Below, piece after piece: positions 40,079-53,405 of a stretch of 64,000 bases of DNA. The stretch comes from Jiangella asiatica. GTDB lineage: Bacteria; Actinomycetota; Actinomycetes; Jiangellales; Jiangellaceae. Where the stretch lies: assembly GCF_004349065.1 (NCBI RefSeq), contig NZ_SMKZ01000034.1, positions 1 to 64,000 on the forward strand, read 5' to 3'. Positions within the stretch are counted from its first letter, which is position 1. Every line of letters begins with the position of its first letter. The notes beneath the pieces were generated by a model. That model made no database searches. It was not told the origin of the DNA and saw only the letters and a list, made by a program, of their open reading frames with translations. Both the position numbers and the translations under genes were made by a program.

Positions 40079-41340
40079 ATGGTTGACGCCCTGCCGCTCC
40101 GGATCTTCCTAGCCTCCCCGGGCGGCCTTGAGGATGAACGCGCTGCAGCGCGCGCATGTGCTAGCGAGCACGGGGTCCGCCGCGATGGCGTCAGCAACGT
40201 GACCTACGAAGTGATCGAGTGGGATCGCGTGCGTGGCACCGCGCGACGGGCGCAGGAGGCGATCAATGAGTTGATCGCCGAAAGTCACTTCATGATCGTG
40301 CTGTTCAAGAGTGCCTGGGGCAGCGAGCCGGGCAGCCCATGGGGATACACCTCCGGCACCGAGGCTCTTCACGGGCCTGCTTGAGCTGGGGCAAGCTGAG
40401 CAGCCGATGCGGGACATTCGGGTCGCGTTCATCGAGGATCCGAACCCGAACGAACGGATCGTCGAACTGCGCCAGCAGATCGTGGAGCGACATTCGGTGA
40501 TGTTTGAGTCAATCGTTGACGTGGGAGATCTGAAGCAGAAGCTGGCCGTACGCCTCGAGTCGTGGGAGACGCTTGCAGGCACCAAGATCCCCAGACACGT
40601 TGATCTGCTGTCGTCTTCCGGGAAGATGTGCTGCGGGCCGCGAACCAACGACTACGGGGCGAGAAGCTCGTCGACCTCGGGCAGCCCGACGCTGGGCGCG
40701 CGGCGCTGGAGGAGGCTGCGGCTCTGGGCGGCCCGATCGAGCTCTTGGCATACGCGAGGCTCCTCCGCCGGGACGGCGACCTGAACGGCGCGTACGTCTC
40801 CACGCAAAGGCGATTAGGTACTTCGTCGAAGGGGGCAGTCTCTACTCAACGCTCGCCGCGGACGCCTTCTCCGCTCAAGCCAGGGTGCTTAGCGCCCAGG
40901 GTCGCCACAACGACGCCATCGGACGGCTTGAACACGCGCTCACCCTGCTGCTCGCAGACGACGGTTACGCCCGGACGGTCCGCTGCCGGATACTCGACGA
41001 CATCGGGCTCGCACGCAGAAGGTCAACGATCTGTCGGGTGCTCGACGGAGCTTCGAGGCGGCTTTGCAGGTGAGGCGTGAGTCTGGGCGAGGCACCGAGG
41101 TATACAGTCCTTGATTAACCTCGCGAGACTCGAAGTGGCCGACGGTGAGCTGGACACCGCCGCCGGTTACGCGGATGAGGTGATCGCGACCCTTCGCGGG
41201 ACACCTCCGTCTGGCCTGCACGCGAACGCGTTTCGAGACGACGATCGACCTAGCTCTATGAGGCGCAGGACAACCAGCCGAGCACGACTGACGACGCCGA
41301 TGCCGTCGTTGCCGATTCCGAGCCGAGACCACACTCCACC
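40079..41340 (+). pseudogene. DUF4062-like/TPR protein, multiply frameshifted
   Basis: It starts intact at 40079 with LPLRIFLASPGGLEDERAAA and an IEWDRVRGTARRAQEAIN segment typical of DUF4062 (TIR-like) N-termini. It breaks near 40370, continues in another frame (FTGLLELGQAEQPMRDIRVA), breaks near 40625 (LRAANQRLRGEKLVDLGQPD), near 40800 (FSAQARVLSAQGRHNDAIGR), and again about 41030 and 41240, where TPR-like INLARLEVADGELDTAAGYA appears. At least five breaks make it dead. The last recognisable codons abut the prophage attachment site. Confidence 0.6.
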
Positions 41341-41363
41341 CCGGAGCGTGGGGTTGTGGTGAG

Positions 41364-41391
41364 TGTCCGAGGGGGGACTTGAACCCCCACA
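41364..41391 (-). other. attL candidate: 3' fragment of a tRNA-Leu-like gene
   Basis: On the minus strand these bases read GTGGGGGTTCAAGTCCCCCC followed by CTCGGACA: a complete T-arm and acceptor 3' strand with discriminator A, as at the end of actinobacterial tRNA-Leu. The 5' two-thirds of a tRNA is absent on either side. That is what integration into a tRNA 3' end leaves at the prophage end away from the tRNA body, so the intact tRNA should be at the right end. Confidence 0.75.
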
Positions 41392-41534: not shown

Positions 41535-41966
41535 ATGTCCAACCAGACACCCACCATTCCGCCCGTCCCGCAGCCGCCGGCCACGAAGCGCCGCCGCTGG
41601 CCGTGGATCGCTGCCATCGTCCTGGCGCTGTTCGCTGGCGTCGGCATCGGCTCTGCGTCCGGCGAGACCGGGACGACCGCGATGCCGGAGCCGCAGGTCG
41701 TCACTGAGACGGTGACCGAGACGGTCACCGAGGAAGTGGCCGTCACGCCGGACGCCTGCCTGAACGCGCTCGATGCCGCCGAGGCCGTGATCTCTCACGC
41801 GCAGACCGCGATCGGGCGGATGGGTGAGGGCTTCGAGGCTGCAGCCTCCTTCGACATCAGTGGCCTCGACGAGTTGACTGCCTGGCTGGATGAGCAGACG
41901 CCGGTGGTGCGCGACGCGCGTGCCGAGTACGACACTCGGGCAGCTGAGTGCAGGAGCGCCGAGTGA
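41535..41966 (+). CDS. Single-pass membrane protein of the prophage surface cluster
   Basis: 143 residues. A Pro-rich basic cytoplasmic start is followed by a membrane helix (WPWIAAIVLALFAGVGIGSA), a Thr/Val/Glu linker (VTETVTETVTEEV) and an alpha-helical outer domain with two Cys (about residues 76 and 139). Similar proteins are common in actinophages and their hosts, with no known function. The stop overlaps the next start (TGATG), so it leads an operon. Confidence 0.8.
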   Translation: MSNQTPTIPPVPQPPATKRRRWPWIAAIVLALFAGVGIGSASGETGTTAMPEPQVVTETVTETVTEEVAVTPDACLNALDAAEAVISHAQTAIGRMGEGFEAAASFDISGLDELTAWLDEQTPVVRDARAEYDTRAAECRSAE

Positions 41967-42520
41967 TGGCCGCCCACCGTGCACCTCGCAGCCGGCCGCG
42001 CCACGCGCGCCGCAGCGCTCGCCGGCCCCGCGGACTACGCTTCCTGATCCCGCTGCTGGCTCTTGCCGTGGCGTTCGTCGGTGGCGTGGCGACGGCCACG
42101 GCCGGCGGCGGCTACCTGCGCGAGGCCGACGTAGATAACCCGATCGCGAGCCGTGGCTGCGTCATCCGCTTCGACACGCTCTCGAGGTCGGGCGCCTCGG
42201 TCGTTCCGCGCATCCATGCGAACGAGACTCACGCCTGCGTCGGCGTGACGTCCCTGTCGGTGGACTGGTCGTCGGGCTCCAGCCGCGGCGACCTGATCCT
42301 CAACAACACTGGCGGACCCGGCGCGGTCGTGTCGGTGACGGTCGAGGAGGACGAGTCGCTCGCGGCTCGGGACATCCAGTGCGGACCGTCTGGCGGCGGC
42401 ACAACGACCCGCATCCGTTGCTATCGCGACGGCGTGAAGATCCCGGCGTACTCGCTGGAGATGTATGGCAAGAACGTGAACCTGTGGGTGGGGTGGGACA
42501 TGTGGATGGGGGAACTGTGA
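41966..42520 (+). CDS. Membrane-anchored protein with a phage tail-tip-like domain
   Basis: 184 residues. An Arg-rich N-terminus and a hydrophobic segment (residues 25-47) act as signal anchor or signal peptide. The remaining roughly 130 residues are homologous to the tail-tip protein at 49168-49791. Matching blocks are RGCVIRF/RACVVRF, IHANETH (83-89 versus 45-51), WSSG/DSSG, DESLAARDI/DESLVARGI, GPSGG and a terminal NLWVGW/NVWLAW. Three Cys pairs could stabilise an exported domain. The start is ATG 41966 (GTG 41948 possible). No function is recorded to my knowledge; display of a tail-like domain is inference. Confidence 0.8.
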   Translation: MAAHRAPRSRPRHARRSARRPRGLRFLIPLLALAVAFVGGVATATAGGGYLREADVDNPIASRGCVIRFDTLSRSGASVVPRIHANETHACVGVTSLSVDWSSGSSRGDLILNNTGGPGAVVSVTVEEDESLAARDIQCGPSGGGTTTRIRCYRDGVKIPAYSLEMYGKNVNLWVGWDMWMGEL

Positions 42521-42627
42521 GCGACCGGCAGCTCAGCTGGGCGGTCGCCCTGATCATCCTCGTGCTGCTCGTGGTGGCGGTCATCGTTGCCGGCGACGAG
42601 CCGGTCCGTCTGGAGGACATGCGATGA
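42517..42627 (+). CDS. 36-residue membrane protein
   Basis: GTG start overlapping the previous stop (GTGA). The short protein is one membrane helix (WAVALIILVLLVVAVIVAG) with charged ends. It overlaps the next gene's ATG as well, so it is embedded in the coupled series. It could be a holin-like or membrane-partner peptide; no family is recognised. Confidence 0.65.
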   Translation: MSDRQLSWAVALIILVLLVVAVIVAGDEPVRLEDMR

Positions 42628-42737
42628 CCGAGCCGCTACCGCCCGATGTCGTCGAGGATGATGACCCCGACTGGGACTCTGACGACCTTCCCTCCACCGC
42701 CGACCCCGGCGTGGTGACCGACCCGAAGGAGGAGTGA
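42624..42737 (+). CDS. 37-residue acidic protein
   Basis: ATG overlapping the upstream stop (ATGA). The product is very acidic and Pro-rich (EPLPPDVVEDDDPDWDSDDL) with no hydrophobic stretch. AAGGAGGAG at its 3' end forms the ribosome site of the next gene. No family recognised; the coupled position supports that it is translated. Confidence 0.55.
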   Translation: MTEPLPPDVVEDDDPDWDSDDLPSTADPGVVTDPKEE

Positions 42738-43559: not shown

Positions 43560-43642
43560 GAGTCGTGGCGTGGGGTGCAAGACAGATCAACCGTGAGCCG
43601 CTACGCTGCGGCCCGTACATACCGTACATTTCGGAGGGGCAC

Positions 43643-44341
43643 ATGAAAAAGACATTCGCCGTGCTGGTGGCAGCGTTCGCGCTGCTGCTGGGCGGCTCCG
43701 CGCCGGCGCTGGCGACTGGTGGTGACACCCCGACGCCGGGCTACAACCACGACCCGCACGACGCGCAGGAGTGCGCGGTCACGCTGATGGCGTGGCTGGA
43801 GCACGAGACCGCGGCGGACTGGCAACTGTTCTTCACCGTCGATGGTGGGGAAGAGTACGGCTCGCCGCTGCCCGCGCTGATCGAGCTGACGCCGGAGTTC
43901 TTCGGCGGCGCAGATTCGGGCGCGCACGAGGTGACCTACTGGACGGAGTCCGTGCACGGCAAGAGCACCGACAAGGTGTCGTTCGCCGTCCAGTGTGGCG
44001 AGCCGGAGCCTGAACCCACAGAGGAGCCGACCACAGAGCCGCCGACTGACGAGCCGACGGATGAGCCCACGGACGAACCGACCGAAGAGCCGACCACGGA
44101 ACCGACCGAAGAGCCGACCACGGAACCGACCACGGAACCGACGGCCGACCCCACGCAGGAGCCGACCACGGAGCCCACGACCGAGCCGACGGATGAGCCG
44201 GGCGACGACGACGGCAATGCCGGCGGCAATGAGGGCGACGACGAGCTGCCCGACACCGGCGCTGGCACGACGGCGCTCGCGCTGGCCGGCGTGGCACTGC
44301 TCGCCGGCGGCTACGCGCTATACCGACGCGCCGCACTGTAG
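43643..44341 (+). CDS. Prophage-encoded LPXTG-anchored surface protein
   Basis: 232 residues with a Sec signal peptide (KKTFAVLVAAFALLLGGSAP, cleavage near ALA-TGG). A folded part of about 100 residues with two Cys (within QECAVTLMAW and FAVQCGE) follows. Next comes a stalk of TEPT/DEPT-type tetrapeptide repeats, then a C-terminal sorting signal LPDTG followed by a membrane helix and a basic tail (YRRAAL). A host sortase should attach it to the cell wall. GGAGGGGC precedes the ATG. It is the last gene of the rightward cluster, just before a strong terminator. The role is unknown; superinfection exclusion or adhesion are possibilities. Confidence 0.85.
   Translation: MKKTFAVLVAAFALLLGGSAPALATGGDTPTPGYNHDPHDAQECAVTLMAWLEHETAADWQLFFTVDGGEEYGSPLPALIELTPEFFGGADSGAHEVTYWTESVHGKSTDKVSFAVQCGEPEPEPTEEPTTEPPTDEPTDEPTDEPTEEPTTEPTEEPTTEPTTEPTADPTQEPTTEPTTEPTDEPGDDDGNAGGNEGDDELPDTGAGTTALALAGVALLAGGYALYRRAAL
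44008..44200 (+). repeat. Repeats encoding the Thr/Glu/Pro stalk
   Basis: About 15 copies of a 12-base unit (variants of GAGCCGACCACG) encode tetrapeptides TEPT, DEPT and TEEP. The copies differ by only a few bases, so length variation between strains by slippage is likely. Confidence 0.85.
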
Positions 44342-48010: not shown

Positions 48011-48211
48011 TCAGGGGATTCCGCCGGCGAACGCGTTGCCGACGGCGCTGCCTACCGCCGCCGCCACGCCGGCCGCGATCCATATGGCCCGCTCCAGGCG
48101 GCGGATGCGGGACTCGTGGTCGAGCACCTTCGGCGCCAGGTGCTCCCGCAGCATCGTGTGGATCTCGACCAGTCGGTCGTGGTCCGACGTGGGGATGTCC
48201 TCCCCGTTCAC
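48011..48211 (-). CDS. XhlA/DUF2746-like membrane protein of the lysis cassette
   Basis: 66 residues, GTG start overlapping the endolysin stop (GTGA). A coiled-coil part (HTMLREHLAPKVLDHESRIR) precedes a C-terminal membrane helix (AIWIAAGVAAAVGSAVGNAF). This topology matches hemolysin XhlA-like or DUF2746 holin partners. Likely works with the holin encoded next to it. Confidence 0.7.
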   Translation of the reverse strand: MNGEDIPTSDHDRLVEIHTMLREHLAPKVLDHESRIRRLERAIWIAAGVAAAVGSAVGNAFAGGIP

Positions 48212-49152
48212 GCCACACCCTCGCGAAGGGCTTCCTTCACCGCCTGCTTCACCGTCGCCTTATCGACGTCGCCGCACTCAGGAAGGCGAGCGAGGATCAG
48301 GTCGGCGGTGATGTCGGCGGTGAGTTCGGCGATACGCTGCTCGTCCAGCTGGTCGCCCCCGGACATCGCCTTGATCCAGTTGTACATGCGCTGGATCGCG
48401 ATGCCGAGCGTGAGCCGCCGGCCGTCCTCGATGGTCTCGCCGCCAACGGTCGCGGACAGCCGCGTGGCCCGCTGCAGCTCCGTCAGGTACGACGGCTGAC
48501 CATCCTTCCGGTTGAGCGGCGACTCCCATGTCGCACGGTGGGGCTGCTCGATCGAGTCCGGGTGGCTCCAGACCGCGTCGGCGATCTCCTTCGCAGTGGG
48601 CATGTCGTCGTCCTCTCCGAGGGGTGCGCCGGCCGCGAGCCACGGCCGGAAGATCTCGTTGAACTGCTCGACCCGGTCGGGGCCGGGGCAGGACTTGGCG
48701 ACCGGGGTCCACGGCCCGGGTGCGCCGAACAGCACGTGATAGCCGAGACCACTGGCGTTCCAGGCGGGGCAGACGCGGGCCGGGAAGTCGTGCACGTCCA
48801 TGCCCCACCGGTACAGCCGCTTGAGCGAGACGATCATCTCCGGCGTCCACTCGCCGTACTCGAGGCCCTCGGTCTCGACGGACAGCAGCCCGTACCGCTT
48901 TCCGCCAGACACCCACGAGTTGCCTTTGTAGTTGGCGTCGGCCTCGCGGGTGCTGTCGCGGTACTGCTCGACGGTGCCGTCGAAGCGGACGTACAGGTGC
49001 GACTCGATGCCGCCGGACGGGCCGTTGAAGTACGGGAACAGCGAGTCGCCCAGGCCGGCGCGGACGTGAAACACCATGCCCACGGGGATGATGCGGGGGT
49101 CGTTGCCGCCGGGTGGAATCTCCTTGCGGATGGCGTCGGGATACCAGGCCAT
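48208..49152 (-). CDS. Endolysin: N-acetylmuramoyl-L-alanine amidase
   Basis: 314 residues. The amidase-2/PGRP fold covers residues about 1-165, with zinc ligands readable as His29 (VGMVFHV), His139 (GLGYHVLFG) and Cys155 (KSCPGP). The region ESHLYVRFDGTVEQYRD is typical of actinophage amidases. The C-terminal 130 residues are helical with no clear cell-wall-binding repeat and may mediate binding or multimerisation. It cuts the bond between muramic acid and the peptide stem at lysis. Confidence 0.9.
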   Translation of the reverse strand: MAWYPDAIRKEIPPGGNDPRIIPVGMVFHVRAGLGDSLFPYFNGPSGGIESHLYVRFDGTVEQYRDSTREADANYKGNSWVSGGKRYGLLSVETEGLEYGEWTPEMIVSLKRLYRWGMDVHDFPARVCPAWNASGLGYHVLFGAPGPWTPVAKSCPGPDRVEQFNEIFRPWLAAGAPLGEDDDMPTAKEIADAVWSHPDSIEQPHRATWESPLNRKDGQPSYLTELQRATRLSATVGGETIEDGRRLTLGIAIQRMYNWIKAMSGGDQLDEQRIAELTADITADLILARLPECGDVDKATVKQAVKEALREGVA

Positions 49153-49167
49153 GCGGGACCTCCCCGG

Positions 49168-49791
49168 TCAGATTTGGGCGTACGCCTCGTTGAACTGGGC
49201 GATGTTCTGCCCGTCGTGGCTGGTGTTGAGTTGGGCGATCGACTGTCCGTCCAGGTGCTGGTTGAACCGGGCCACGCTGCCCGGCGTGCGGCGCTGGAGG
49301 TCGGCGACTTTCTCCTCCAGCTCGGCAATGCGGTCGGTAGGCGACGGGCGGCCGGTGCTGCGCACCCGTGGCGTCAGCCACGCCAGCCACACGTTGCAGG
49401 TCTCCCCGGCGATGGCGTCCCAGTCGGCCTGCAGGTTCAGGTAGAGCCGGCCGACACCGTCCTGGCGGGCGATGAACCGGGTGCCGGGTGCGCCGCCGGA
49501 CGGCCCGAGGTCGATGCCCCGCGCTACCAGGGACTCGTCGGGTGTGCAGGTGATGGAGCCGATGGGGGCGCCCCCGTCGTTGATGACCTCGAGCCGGCCG
49601 GACGAGTCAATGTGCACGCCCAGCGCGCCGACGGCGACGTGGGTCTCATTGGCGTGGATGTACGGGCCACCGGACTGGAACGACCCGTCAGGGTTGACCA
49701 CGCCGGGCTCGAAGCGGACGACGCAGGCCCGGATGTCCCATTCGATGTCGGGATGGGTGGCGTCCTTGAACGGCCCGATTTCGTTGGCCAT
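49168..49791 (-). CDS. Tail-tip/fibre protein with an IHANETH domain and DGQ repeats
   Basis: 207 residues from the ATG at 49791, overlapping the previous stop by one base. An N-terminal beta-rich domain (IHANETH at 45-51, DESLVARGIDLGPSGG at 85-100) is homologous to the membrane-anchored protein at 41966-42520. A coiled-coil (DRIAELEEKVADLQRRT) and a C-terminal tail with repeated FNQHLDGQSIAQLN / SHDGQNIAQFN follow. The same repeats end the large tail protein upstream. Most likely a trimeric tail-tip fibre that contacts the host. Confidence 0.75.
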   Translation of the reverse strand: MANEIGPFKDATHPDIEWDIRACVVRFEPGVVNPDGSFQSGGPYIHANETHVAVGALGVHIDSSGRLEVINDGGAPIGSITCTPDESLVARGIDLGPSGGAPGTRFIARQDGVGRLYLNLQADWDAIAGETCNVWLAWLTPRVRSTGRPSPTDRIAELEEKVADLQRRTPGSVARFNQHLDGQSIAQLNTSHDGQNIAQFNEAYAQI

Positions 49792-50351
49792 CAGAGCAGC
49801 GCAACTCGGCGGATGAACTTGCGCCCGGCGTCGCTGCCTTCGGGCATGCCGAGATCTCCGCCGGACGTCTGCCGTGTCCAGAACGACACCACGTCGCCGG
49901 CAGACAACGAGAGTTCGGTGTCGCACAACGCAGTGGTCGCAGACCCGCTGACGGCGGCCACGGTGATCGTCCGCTCAATATTCCCGTTGATGCGGATCTG
50001 CGCTTGCCGGCCGCCTATGGAGTTGTTGAGGAAGGCGACATCCAGCTCGACTCGATACCAGCCGTCCTGGCTCACGGTGTAGCCGGCGCTGGAGTGCGTG
50101 ATCCCGGAGACCGTGCTACCAGGGTCGCCCGTCCCACCTGTCCACCCGGCACCCGAGATGTCCGTGAACGTGTTGTCTGGGATGGTCTGAGACGTTGTCT
50201 TGTAGTGCACGCGCCACGGCTGGGTGATGGTTCCCTCGGGCCGCGTGATCGAGTCACCCATCCGCTTTAGCCACGTGTCGAGCCCGGAGCCGGGCGGCCC
50301 GAAGAGCTCGGTGTCGTCGGGCGTCCAGATGCCTTGGTCGTTGACGGCCAC
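49791..50351 (-). CDS. C1q/TNF-like jelly-roll phage protein
   Basis: 186 residues, GTG start. An N-terminal segment of about 60 residues is followed by a compact beta-sandwich: GYTVSQDGWYRVELDVAFLN, then QIRINGNIERTI, LCDTELSLSAGDVVSFWTRQ. This pattern is that of C1q-like trimeric receptor-binding domains found on phage tail tips. It lies between the large tail protein and the tail-tip fibre, all in overlapping genes. Confidence 0.7.
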   Translation of the reverse strand: MAVNDQGIWTPDDTELFGPPGSGLDTWLKRMGDSITRPEGTITQPWRVHYKTTSQTIPDNTFTDISGAGWTGGTGDPGSTVSGITHSSAGYTVSQDGWYRVELDVAFLNNSIGGRQAQIRINGNIERTITVAAVSGSATTALCDTELSLSAGDVVSFWTRQTSGGDLGMPEGSDAGRKFIRRVALL

Positions 50352-50352
50352 G

Positions 50353-52614
50353 TCAGCTCACTCTCAGGGGGTCGGCGTTGAAATCGGCGATGGTCTGGCC
50401 GTCCCAGAGCGCATTAAGGTCGGCGATGGTCTGGCCGTCCCACGCCTGGTTGAACTCGGCGATGGTCGGCAGTAGGGGTCGGACGTCGATGTACTGGTCG
50501 ATGTTGCCCGCGGTGCCGCCGTGCTCGATGGCGACAACGACACCCCGCAGCGGCTCGAGCCCGGTGACGTCAGGGTCGGAGATCTCAACGATGTCGCCGA
50601 GTTGGCGCCGCGGTTCCCACAGGACCGGGACTCTCTGCAGGATCGCCCGCGGCGCGGACAGCTCGGCGGCGAGGAAACTCGCCAGGTCGAGAGCTGATGA
50701 GTTGTCCTGGACGTAGGGCGACTCGTCCAGGGTCAGCTCTTCTGCACGCACACCCTCGTTGTCGACCTCGGCGTACTCCGACGCCTGGCTGGCCTGGATG
50801 ATCCGCTGCCGCGCCCGGATGAACAGGTCTGGCGCGTCGCTACCGTTGCCAGCGACGAGCCACACACGGCCGGAGTGGTTGTTGGTGACAATGACTCGCG
50901 CGACCCGCGGCCCGCTGGGGTCGACCTCAACCTGCACCGACGTCGACACGTCCGAACCTGAGCCGTCAGCGGCCGTGTTGGCGCGGAACCGCGTGCCGGT
51001 AGAGCCGGTGCCGGCCGTCGCCGTCGTGTCGATCCCGATGGCGATGCCGTTCAGATTCACCGACAGGCGCTTGGTGGCGTTGGCCCCCACGGAGATCACC
51101 GTGCCGGTCTCCTGGGCGCTCCACACGGTGTGTGCGTAGTCGTCGGACAGGTATGACGTGACCGGCAGTACGGGTACCTGGACGCTGGAGCGGACCTGCT
51201 CGACGGCCTCGCGCCACGACACGTCCATCAGCGACGTTCGCGACGTGATCTCGTGGACCGGCTCGCCGATGCCGCGCAGCGACTGGCGGTTCCGAAAGGT
51301 TGGAGTCCCCTGCTCGTCCAGCCAGACGGCGCCCAACTCGGCCTCGGCGACCTCTCGAAGGGCGTCCCACCCGTTGTCGCGGAACAGCCCGGGCGTGGCG
51401 TCGATCCGTCCGATGGTCGGGTCGAGACTGGCTGACGGGACGAAGCCGATCATGGCATGCGCGCCGGATGGGTTGGACCGGACCGCCACGCCGGCCAGTG
51501 CCATCCCCTCTTCGCTGGTCACCTGAACGTAAGAAACGCCGTTGCTGTGAGCTCCTACGAGACTCGTCGACTGAGAGCCGCCCTCATAGAACAGGATTAC
51601 GTTGTTGGTGGCGCCGTCGTGCTCGACATCGATTGAGAATCGACCACCGGGCCAGCCAGTGAATGTGTGGGTCGGAGTTCCCAACGTGTTGATGGCGACC
51701 TCGATCTCACCGGGCCTGATCCGAACCCTGGTCCAGGCGAGTCCGGCCGATTGCAGAAGGATCTCCGTCTGCCCCGATTCGCCGTTTGCCCATCCATGGA
51801 TGCGGACCCAGTCGGTCTCTACCAGTCGCGCCGGGCGCACCCGGAAGACAAAGTCTCCGGTCAGAGCGAGGAACCGCTCACCGGTGTCCCATGCCTGGCT
51901 GACGAAGGTCGGATTGTCCTCGGTGACCCCGTTGCGCGCCTGGATGAGCTCCCCGTAGAAGGCGGTCGCGGACACCGACGTCCCGGCCGGGAGCTGTTCG
52001 GGCCACACCGTTCCCTGGAGCGGGCATGAGACCGCGGTGGAGGGCTCGGCCGCCGGCATCGTGTAGTACCCCAACTGCCGCAACACAGAGTCCATCACGT
52101 AGCTCCCAGACACCCCCGGGAACAGCAGCACCGAAGCGCCAGAGTCGGGGACGTAACGCATCTGCGACGCCAGCGGCGCGACGATGACATCTCGCCGCAG
52201 TAGGGCGGCGTCGTCGTCGCAGTCCACCGACATGACGTCGGTCAGCGCCGAGCCGCCAGCGTCCATGACCCGGCCCGTGAACACCGGCACCAGGGACGGG
52301 CGGCCATCGGTGCCGATGAAGCCGGCCCGGATGGAGCAGCCCGACTCGACCACTCGCGAAGCTGTCTTGGAGAACGGGTTCCGGGCGACCTGCGTCTCAA
52401 TGTCGGCGGCCGGGATCTCCGCCTGAGCGTCCGCCACCGACTGCCCGGAGATGCCCCGCACCTGAGCCGGCAGGTAGGTCGCGATCTCCCGGCGCACACT
52501 CCACGAGTCAGGCTCAACGTCCGTCCGCGCGCCGGCAACGTCGCCGACATCAACAACAGCGACAGGCTCAGAGACGGTCAGGTCGGTCGGCCAGTTCGCC
52601 GGCGTCGGCTGCAT
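50353..52614 (-). CDS. Large minor tail protein (tail hub/tip)
   Basis: 753 residues, ATG 52614 overlapping the distal tail gene's stop. The N-terminal part (ATYLPAQVRGISGQSVADAQ, then GCSIRAGFIGTDGRPSLVPV) and a C-terminal region with LWEPRRQLGDIVEISDPDVT resemble siphovirus tail-hub proteins. In the middle a jelly-roll-like module (WVRIHGWANGESGQTEILLQ) is inserted. The end has FNQAWDGQTIADLNALWDGQ and a further copy, matching the repeats of the fibre at 49168. It should form the tail tip complex. Confidence 0.75.
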   Translation of the reverse strand: MQPTPANWPTDLTVSEPVAVVDVGDVAGARTDVEPDSWSVRREIATYLPAQVRGISGQSVADAQAEIPAADIETQVARNPFSKTASRVVESGCSIRAGFIGTDGRPSLVPVFTGRVMDAGGSALTDVMSVDCDDDAALLRRDVIVAPLASQMRYVPDSGASVLLFPGVSGSYVMDSVLRQLGYYTMPAAEPSTAVSCPLQGTVWPEQLPAGTSVSATAFYGELIQARNGVTEDNPTFVSQAWDTGERFLALTGDFVFRVRPARLVETDWVRIHGWANGESGQTEILLQSAGLAWTRVRIRPGEIEVAINTLGTPTHTFTGWPGGRFSIDVEHDGATNNVILFYEGGSQSTSLVGAHSNGVSYVQVTSEEGMALAGVAVRSNPSGAHAMIGFVPSASLDPTIGRIDATPGLFRDNGWDALREVAEAELGAVWLDEQGTPTFRNRQSLRGIGEPVHEITSRTSLMDVSWREAVEQVRSSVQVPVLPVTSYLSDDYAHTVWSAQETGTVISVGANATKRLSVNLNGIAIGIDTTATAGTGSTGTRFRANTAADGSGSDVSTSVQVEVDPSGPRVARVIVTNNHSGRVWLVAGNGSDAPDLFIRARQRIIQASQASEYAEVDNEGVRAEELTLDESPYVQDNSSALDLASFLAAELSAPRAILQRVPVLWEPRRQLGDIVEISDPDVTGLEPLRGVVVAIEHGGTAGNIDQYIDVRPLLPTIAEFNQAWDGQTIADLNALWDGQTIADFNADPLRVS

Positions 52615-53405
52615 CAGCCGACCTCGAGCAACTCTGCGGTGTAATCCGATCGGACGGTTCCGTCGTCCCACACCGCCTGATGCGTGCGCTGCATGCCACT
52701 CACCGACACCCGCGGGATTCCTTCCCCGGGCAGCCAGTCAATGACCGTGGCCGTCTCGGTGAGCTGCACCCGGTTGAAGTTCCCCGCCACATCCGGGTCG
52801 AGGACCACGCGCACGCCCCCGGCGCCAGCAGGTGCGGCACCGGTCGCCGACAGGCGCCCAGTGCCCGTGCTGCCCGCAGTCGTCGACAGCGTGACGCCGT
52901 CGGCGTCCACCCAGCGCAGACCTACGTGCGACGACGCCGACGCGAAGGTCGACGCCGTGTACGTGCGCCCCTCCAGCACCGGCACCACCGGGGCGACCGC
53001 CTCGCCAAGCGGAACGTCGATCAACGGCAGGGCACCCCCCAGCACCGAGTACGTCAGCGTCCCCCCACCGACAGCCTCGTACGGCTCGTCACCCCACAGG
53101 CCGGGCGCGGCCACGCTGGGCCGAAGCATGTTCGTTGCCGCGGCGTACGGGTCGTACCAGTAGGTCGGCACGGACGGGTTCGCCAGCGAACCGGACTCCA
53201 ACTCCACCAGCGCGGCCACCTCTGCCGGTGTCGCCCACGCGAGCGACAGCGTCCACCGTCGGGCCGACCTGGGTGCGCGCTGGATCGAACGCATGCCGGC
53301 CAGATTCAGCCGTGGCGTCGAGGGCCGCTCCACCGGCGCCTCAACCGGCGCCGGACAGCGAATCTCCTGCAGCGCGCCGAGACGGCCGATCCACGTGGAG
53401 GACAT
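52614..53405 (-). CDS. Distal-tail-like minor tail protein
   Basis: 263 residues directly downstream of the tape measure with stop/start overlap. It opens WIGRLGALQEIRCPAPVEAP and contains RRWTLSLAWATPAEVAALVE, plus a carbohydrate-binding-like beta-sandwich (YTASTFASASSHVGLRWVDA, then GAGGVRVVLDPDVAGNFNRV). Position and composition are those of a distal tail protein joining the tube to the tip. Confidence 0.7.
   Translation of the reverse strand: MSSTWIGRLGALQEIRCPAPVEAPVERPSTPRLNLAGMRSIQRAPRSARRWTLSLAWATPAEVAALVELESGSLANPSVPTYWYDPYAAATNMLRPSVAAPGLWGDEPYEAVGGGTLTYSVLGGALPLIDVPLGEAVAPVVPVLEGRTYTASTFASASSHVGLRWVDADGVTLSTTAGSTGTGRLSATGAAPAGAGGVRVVLDPDVAGNFNRVQLTETATVIDWLPGEGIPRVSVSGMQRTHQAVWDDGTVRSDYTAELLEVG

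Follow-up and report, generated by a model that had tools for sequence, protein, structure and literature searches.

A probable cell-envelope domain in an exported moron and a tail-tip protein of a Jiangella asiatica prophage, with independent origins for the two copies

Why should one prophage encode the same domain twice, once in an exported protein beside its attachment site and once in its tail tip? This question is raised by a prophage of Jiangella asiatica that lies partly in the window analysed here, i.e. the 64,000 nucleotides at positions 1 to 64,000 of contig NZ_SMKZ01000034.1. A preliminary description had read the exported protein (P0002) as a duplicate of the tail-tip protein (P0003), possibly displayed by the lysogen to mask a receptor or block related phages. 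We find that the domain is indeed common to both proteins and that their independent origin is well supported.

The boundary of the prophage is marked by a 29-bp attachment core (GTGGGGGTTCAAGTCCCCCCTCGGACACT, 41361-41389, minus strand), which is the 3′ part of a tRNA-Leu(gag). The same 29 nucleotides form the 3′ end of an intact tRNA-Leu(gag) on contig C60, where the tRNA is followed by a tyrosine integrase (C60:57227, phrog_1, E=6e-59) and then by early phage genes; the corresponding region of genome G000 is C60:57062-58387. The identity of the core, together with the integrase and early genes, indicates that the prophage is split over two contigs, with the integrase and early genes on C60 and the late genes on C62, the contig of the window. 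P0002 is located inside the prophage, approximately 0.6 kb from the att site. The earlier placement of this gene near attL is therefore borne out by the core and its match to the tRNA-Leu(gag) beside the integrase. Two further observations concern the outer side of this boundary. The IMG/VR contig starts approximately 1 kb outside the core, and the region 40079-41080, just outside att, contains a DUF4062-like start in overlapping short frames and a weak match to the PDC-S60 defence system; this is possibly a broken gene.

P0002 (41966-42520, plus strand) encodes 184 amino acids, with the domain at approximately residues 62-178 and four cysteines in the translation. It had been described as exported and held by a signal anchor. 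Read by eye, its N-terminus has an arginine-rich start, then a run of hydrophobic residues and a site resembling AxA; this agrees with export and could represent either a cleavable signal peptide or an anchor, a signal anchor being plausible from the sequence. In the translation, the hydrophobic segment is not followed by a lipobox cysteine, and the protein matches no Pfam family at E 1 and no PADLOC defence model.

The neighbours of P0002 are small proteins of the membrane and wall. Directly upstream is a single-TM moron of 143 amino acids (41535-41966, plus strand) from the phrog_34894 family, which has relatives in Arthrobacter phages; its stop codon overlaps the P0002 start (TGATG, 41964-41968). 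Downstream, the GTG start of TM36, a hydrophobic protein of 36 amino acids (42517-42627, plus strand) with no match among the INPHARED phages, overlaps the P0002 stop (42517-42520). The stop of TM36 is in turn overlapped (42624-42627) by an acidic ORF of 37 amino acids (42624-42737, plus strand), as read from the sequence and its frame translations. These same-strand overlaps of 3-4 nucleotides suggest that the four genes form a single translationally coupled unit. A promoter and terminator scan, of a kind ill-suited to actinobacteria, returned nothing, and an Rfam search was also empty. The same moron cluster includes an LPXTG wall-anchored protein of 235 amino acids with PT repeats (43634-44341, plus strand). 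A match of this protein to PD-T4-6 was ignored, as it is weak and restricted to the PT repeats. P0002 thus lies inside the prophage, on the strand opposite the late operon and in a cluster whose content varies in a sister phage, as is typical of a moron, and it is most likely a lysogenic-conversion envelope protein.

The second copy resides in the late structural operon, as had been proposed; this is confirmed by the gene order, which runs from the tape measure through a 263-aa protein, a Tal-like protein of 772 amino acids (50353-52671), a tail protein of 186 amino acids (49791-50351) and P0003 (49168-49791) to an amidase-type endolysin (48208-49152), all on the minus strand. The 186-aa protein has a weak SO2946-like C-terminal domain. 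P0003, which adjoins the endolysin, has 207 amino acids and consists of the domain (approximately residues 20-141), a coiled coil and three IAxFN repeats. The C-terminus of the Tal-like protein also carries three such repeats, and the 12-residue spacing of the IAxFN-like motifs is the same in the two proteins (residues 737, 749 and 761 of Tal; 173, 185 and 197 of P0003). From these common repeats, P0003 probably docks on Tal, where it would give the tip one more contact with the host surface next to the tail protein of 186 amino acids. It is most likely an accessory tip protein built on a bacterial envelope domain.

The relationship between the two copies is clear at the level of sequence. P0002 and P0003 are 39% identical, with 52% positives, over 124 amino acids (BLASTP, E=4e-19), and the motifs RxCVxRF, IHANETH, DESLxAR, GPSGG and NxWxxW are colinear in both. 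Furthermore, when 17 relatives from outside phages were made into a profile, it matched P0002 with 91 bits and P0003 with 88 bits; of 1000 shuffled controls, none was reported. The motifs listed in the preliminary description, and the shared domain that it deduced from them, are therefore correct. A search of the whole genome with P0003 recovered, besides the query, P0002 (E=4e-14), 32 residues of repeat at the C-terminus of the Tal-like protein and a single stretch at chance level, so that no further credible copy of the domain was found. No family in Pfam, NCBIfam or PHROG covers the domain, and P0002, P0003 and their phage relatives have no homologue among the INPHARED phages.

AlphaFold2 models give some indication of the fold. 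The P0003 model has a mean pLDDT of 80, with approximately 90 in the domain, which consists mostly of strands; that of P0002 reaches a moderate mean pLDDT of 71. The strands of the two models line up, an agreement that is not independent since both were built from one small alignment of the same nine sequences. Against viral structures, the best matches of the P0003 model are minor tail proteins (E of about 1e-6, TM up to 0.49), and a Foldseek search of the PDB returned nothing lower than E=0.1. In a second comparison with the PDB, the tips of tailspikes and fibres, together with H-type lectins, were found at Z 3.8-5.5, tied with unrelated beta-sandwiches and below the level of kinship. Two candidates were dismissed: WSSV VP37, the PDB chain with the highest score (Z 6.1), is a common beta-sandwich, and the matches to ‘Pizza’ beta-propellers from a PDB sequence search span only a repeat motif of approximately 26-34 residues. 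The best reading is a mostly beta (beta-sandwich) cell-envelope domain of approximately 110-120 residues, found mainly in secreted bacterial proteins. Judging from its position, its neighbours and the weak hint from the fold, the domain is probably glycan-binding.

Did the phage duplicate its own tail gene, with fast divergence afterwards? The presence of both proteins in one prophage, at 39% identity, is what invites this explanation. In a maximum-likelihood tree of the domain, where the deep branches are without resolution, P0002 joins the moron of the sister phage, L026 (96/87), and then the chromosomal secreted actinobacterial proteins L057 and L059 (91/90), and a clade of P0002 and P0003 is rejected (AU test, p=0.001, delta lnL 30). 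Each copy is also nearer to other family members than to its partner. P0002 is nearer to L026, L057, L059 and L021 than to P0003, while P0003 is nearer to L020, L025 and L021 than to P0002; the nearest proteins to P0003 are a lipoprotein-like secreted protein of the Sporichthyaceae (47%) and L025 (43%). The four cysteines of P0002 are common to L026, L057 and L059. The C65/C91 pair also occurs together in additional actinobacterial copies that are exported, a pattern to be expected of extracellular disulphides, and P0003 is without the C91 partner. The tree and the AU test thus speak against the duplication put forward originally, and we regard it as highly improbable.

The domain is not confined to phages. 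Among Actinomycetes it was found in 5 of 394 genomes, including that of the window itself, and in none of the 11 other genomes of the window's genus. The family f33 hosts it in 7 of 150 genomes, three of which have three copies, and the family of Exiguobacterium in 7 of 38 (8 of 349 for the whole class); it also occurs twice on a Jeotgalibacillus plasmid. No phage structural genes were seen in the flanks that were read around the chromosomal copies. The closest chromosomal relatives of P0002 adjoin secreted Phage_lysozyme2, Amidase_2, GH19 or M23 proteins and NB-ARC regulators, while the relatives in Exiguobacterium and on the Jeotgalibacillus plasmid adjoin other secreted or surface proteins. 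Secreted proteins with no phage connection, in Actinomycetes and in Bacilli, therefore use it as well, some with three domains each, which counts against the preliminary reading of it as a tail-tip domain. As a separate observation, the chromosomal copies L070 and L071, from two genera, are each located beside NB-ARC/HTH regulators and secreted wall hydrolases, a neighbourhood that may be a conserved locus.

A comparison with related phages shows how the two copies are associated. The sister phage (IMGVR_UViG_3300019889_000022; G395, the source of L026) is colinear with the prophage from the terminase to the tape measure. Its matched genes are 45-77% identical, the best-conserved late proteins being at 58-77% and the tape measure at 58%. 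Its counterpart of P0002, a moron with 57% identity, adjoins the integrase directly and is followed by a short ORF and a small hydrophobic protein like TM36 (..AGDDPMNVEDMR in one against ..AGDEPVRLEDMR in the other). After its Tal there is a 185-aa tail protein, in the same place as the 186-aa protein here, and then the endolysin; no homologue of P0003 was found in the 47-kb contig, which is possibly incomplete. Conversely, L025, from a 19-kb phage fragment that is also possibly incomplete, has a P0003-like gene in a tail operon and no secreted copy. Clade-specific profiles found no further phage with a copy of either type. Since the sister phage is without the tail copy and the L025 fragment without the secreted copy, the pairing of moron and tail-tip protein has been seen once, and the recurrence in other prophages that was looked for did not appear.

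What, then, might P0002 do? Receptor masking is one answer, in which P0002 on the lysogen would occupy a glycan needed by a P0003-type tip and so block the adsorption of related phages. The same domain family is found in the exported moron and the tail tip of one phage, the moron lies beside att among genes for membrane and wall proteins, and the superinfection-exclusion gene ltp of TP-J34 likewise adjoins int (PMC3952083). However, P0002 is not derived from P0003 according to the tree and AU test, the sister phage retains the moron without a P0003 homologue, the chromosomal proteins nearest to P0002 have no phage link, and copies that are only 39% identical need not share a ligand. With duplication unsupported, masking loses its main argument and is left with the co-occurrence of the two proteins; we consider it unlikely. 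A related version, in which a host domain was recruited twice and the secreted relative of the tip domain acts as a self-decoy, competing for the same wall glycan and excluding superinfecting phages, strikes us as quite unlikely. A role apart from phage exclusion is tentatively possible by analogy with the relatives: a wall-associated P0002 might raise the fitness of the lysogen by changing how the cells adhere, how their wall turns over or how well they withstand lytic enzymes. The wall hydrolases and NB-ARC regulators beside its close chromosomal relatives, and the secreted or surface proteins near those of Exiguobacterium and the Jeotgalibacillus plasmid, are consistent with this, but a neighbourhood is indirect evidence.

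The reading that we prefer, and to which we give an even chance, is that an envelope domain was recruited twice, independently, as a lysogenic-conversion protein (P0002) and as an extra tail-tip protein (P0003). The phage would have taken up a domain of bacterial secreted proteins on two separate occasions. At the tail tip, the domain of P0003 would be joined via the coiled coil to the IAxFN repeats and docked on Tal. P0002 would be exported from the cluster of membrane and wall proteins beside att, opposite the late operon, and would probably settle in the lysogen wall by binding an envelope glycan. We infer that P0002 is expressed in the lysogen; its ligand, its phenotype and any effect on later phages are likewise inferred.

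Some known systems resemble parts of this arrangement. Ltp of Streptococcus thermophilus TP-J34 is a superinfection-exclusion lipoprotein directed against the tape measure protein; its gene lies beside int (PMC3952083). Like P0002, it is a small exported moron beside the integrase of a temperate phage in a Gram-positive host (PMC3952083). In contrast, P0002 has neither a lipobox nor a Pfam match, its domain resembles a tail-tip protein, and exclusion is only putative. The tips of AP22 gp53, the R1 pyocin fibre and the phiAB6 tailspike, as well as H-type lectins, are alike in having a beta-sandwich at a receptor-contact position (predicted here; Z of approximately 4-5.5), but no sequence similarity was found and the Z scores are too low for one fold family. 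The secreted chromosomal proteins L057, L059, L016 and L022 and the plasmid-borne L040 have the same domain, are exported and in some cases have the same cysteines; unlike P0002, they are not in phages, and some have three tandem domains. The gene directly upstream of P0002 belongs to the family of the phrog_34894 moron cassettes of Arthrobacter phages, although no P0002 homologue was found in INPHARED phages. In the openly accessible literature we found no precedent for a tail-tip domain displayed by a lysogen.

In summary, a domain family that is absent from Pfam and NCBIfam is found in secreted proteins encoded on bacterial chromosomes and in the morons and tail tips of phages, which suggests that a single envelope-associated module serves host and virus alike. 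It offers a test case for the recruitment of host wall-binding domains by tail tips, and for whether such a domain, displayed by a lysogen, may alter adsorption.
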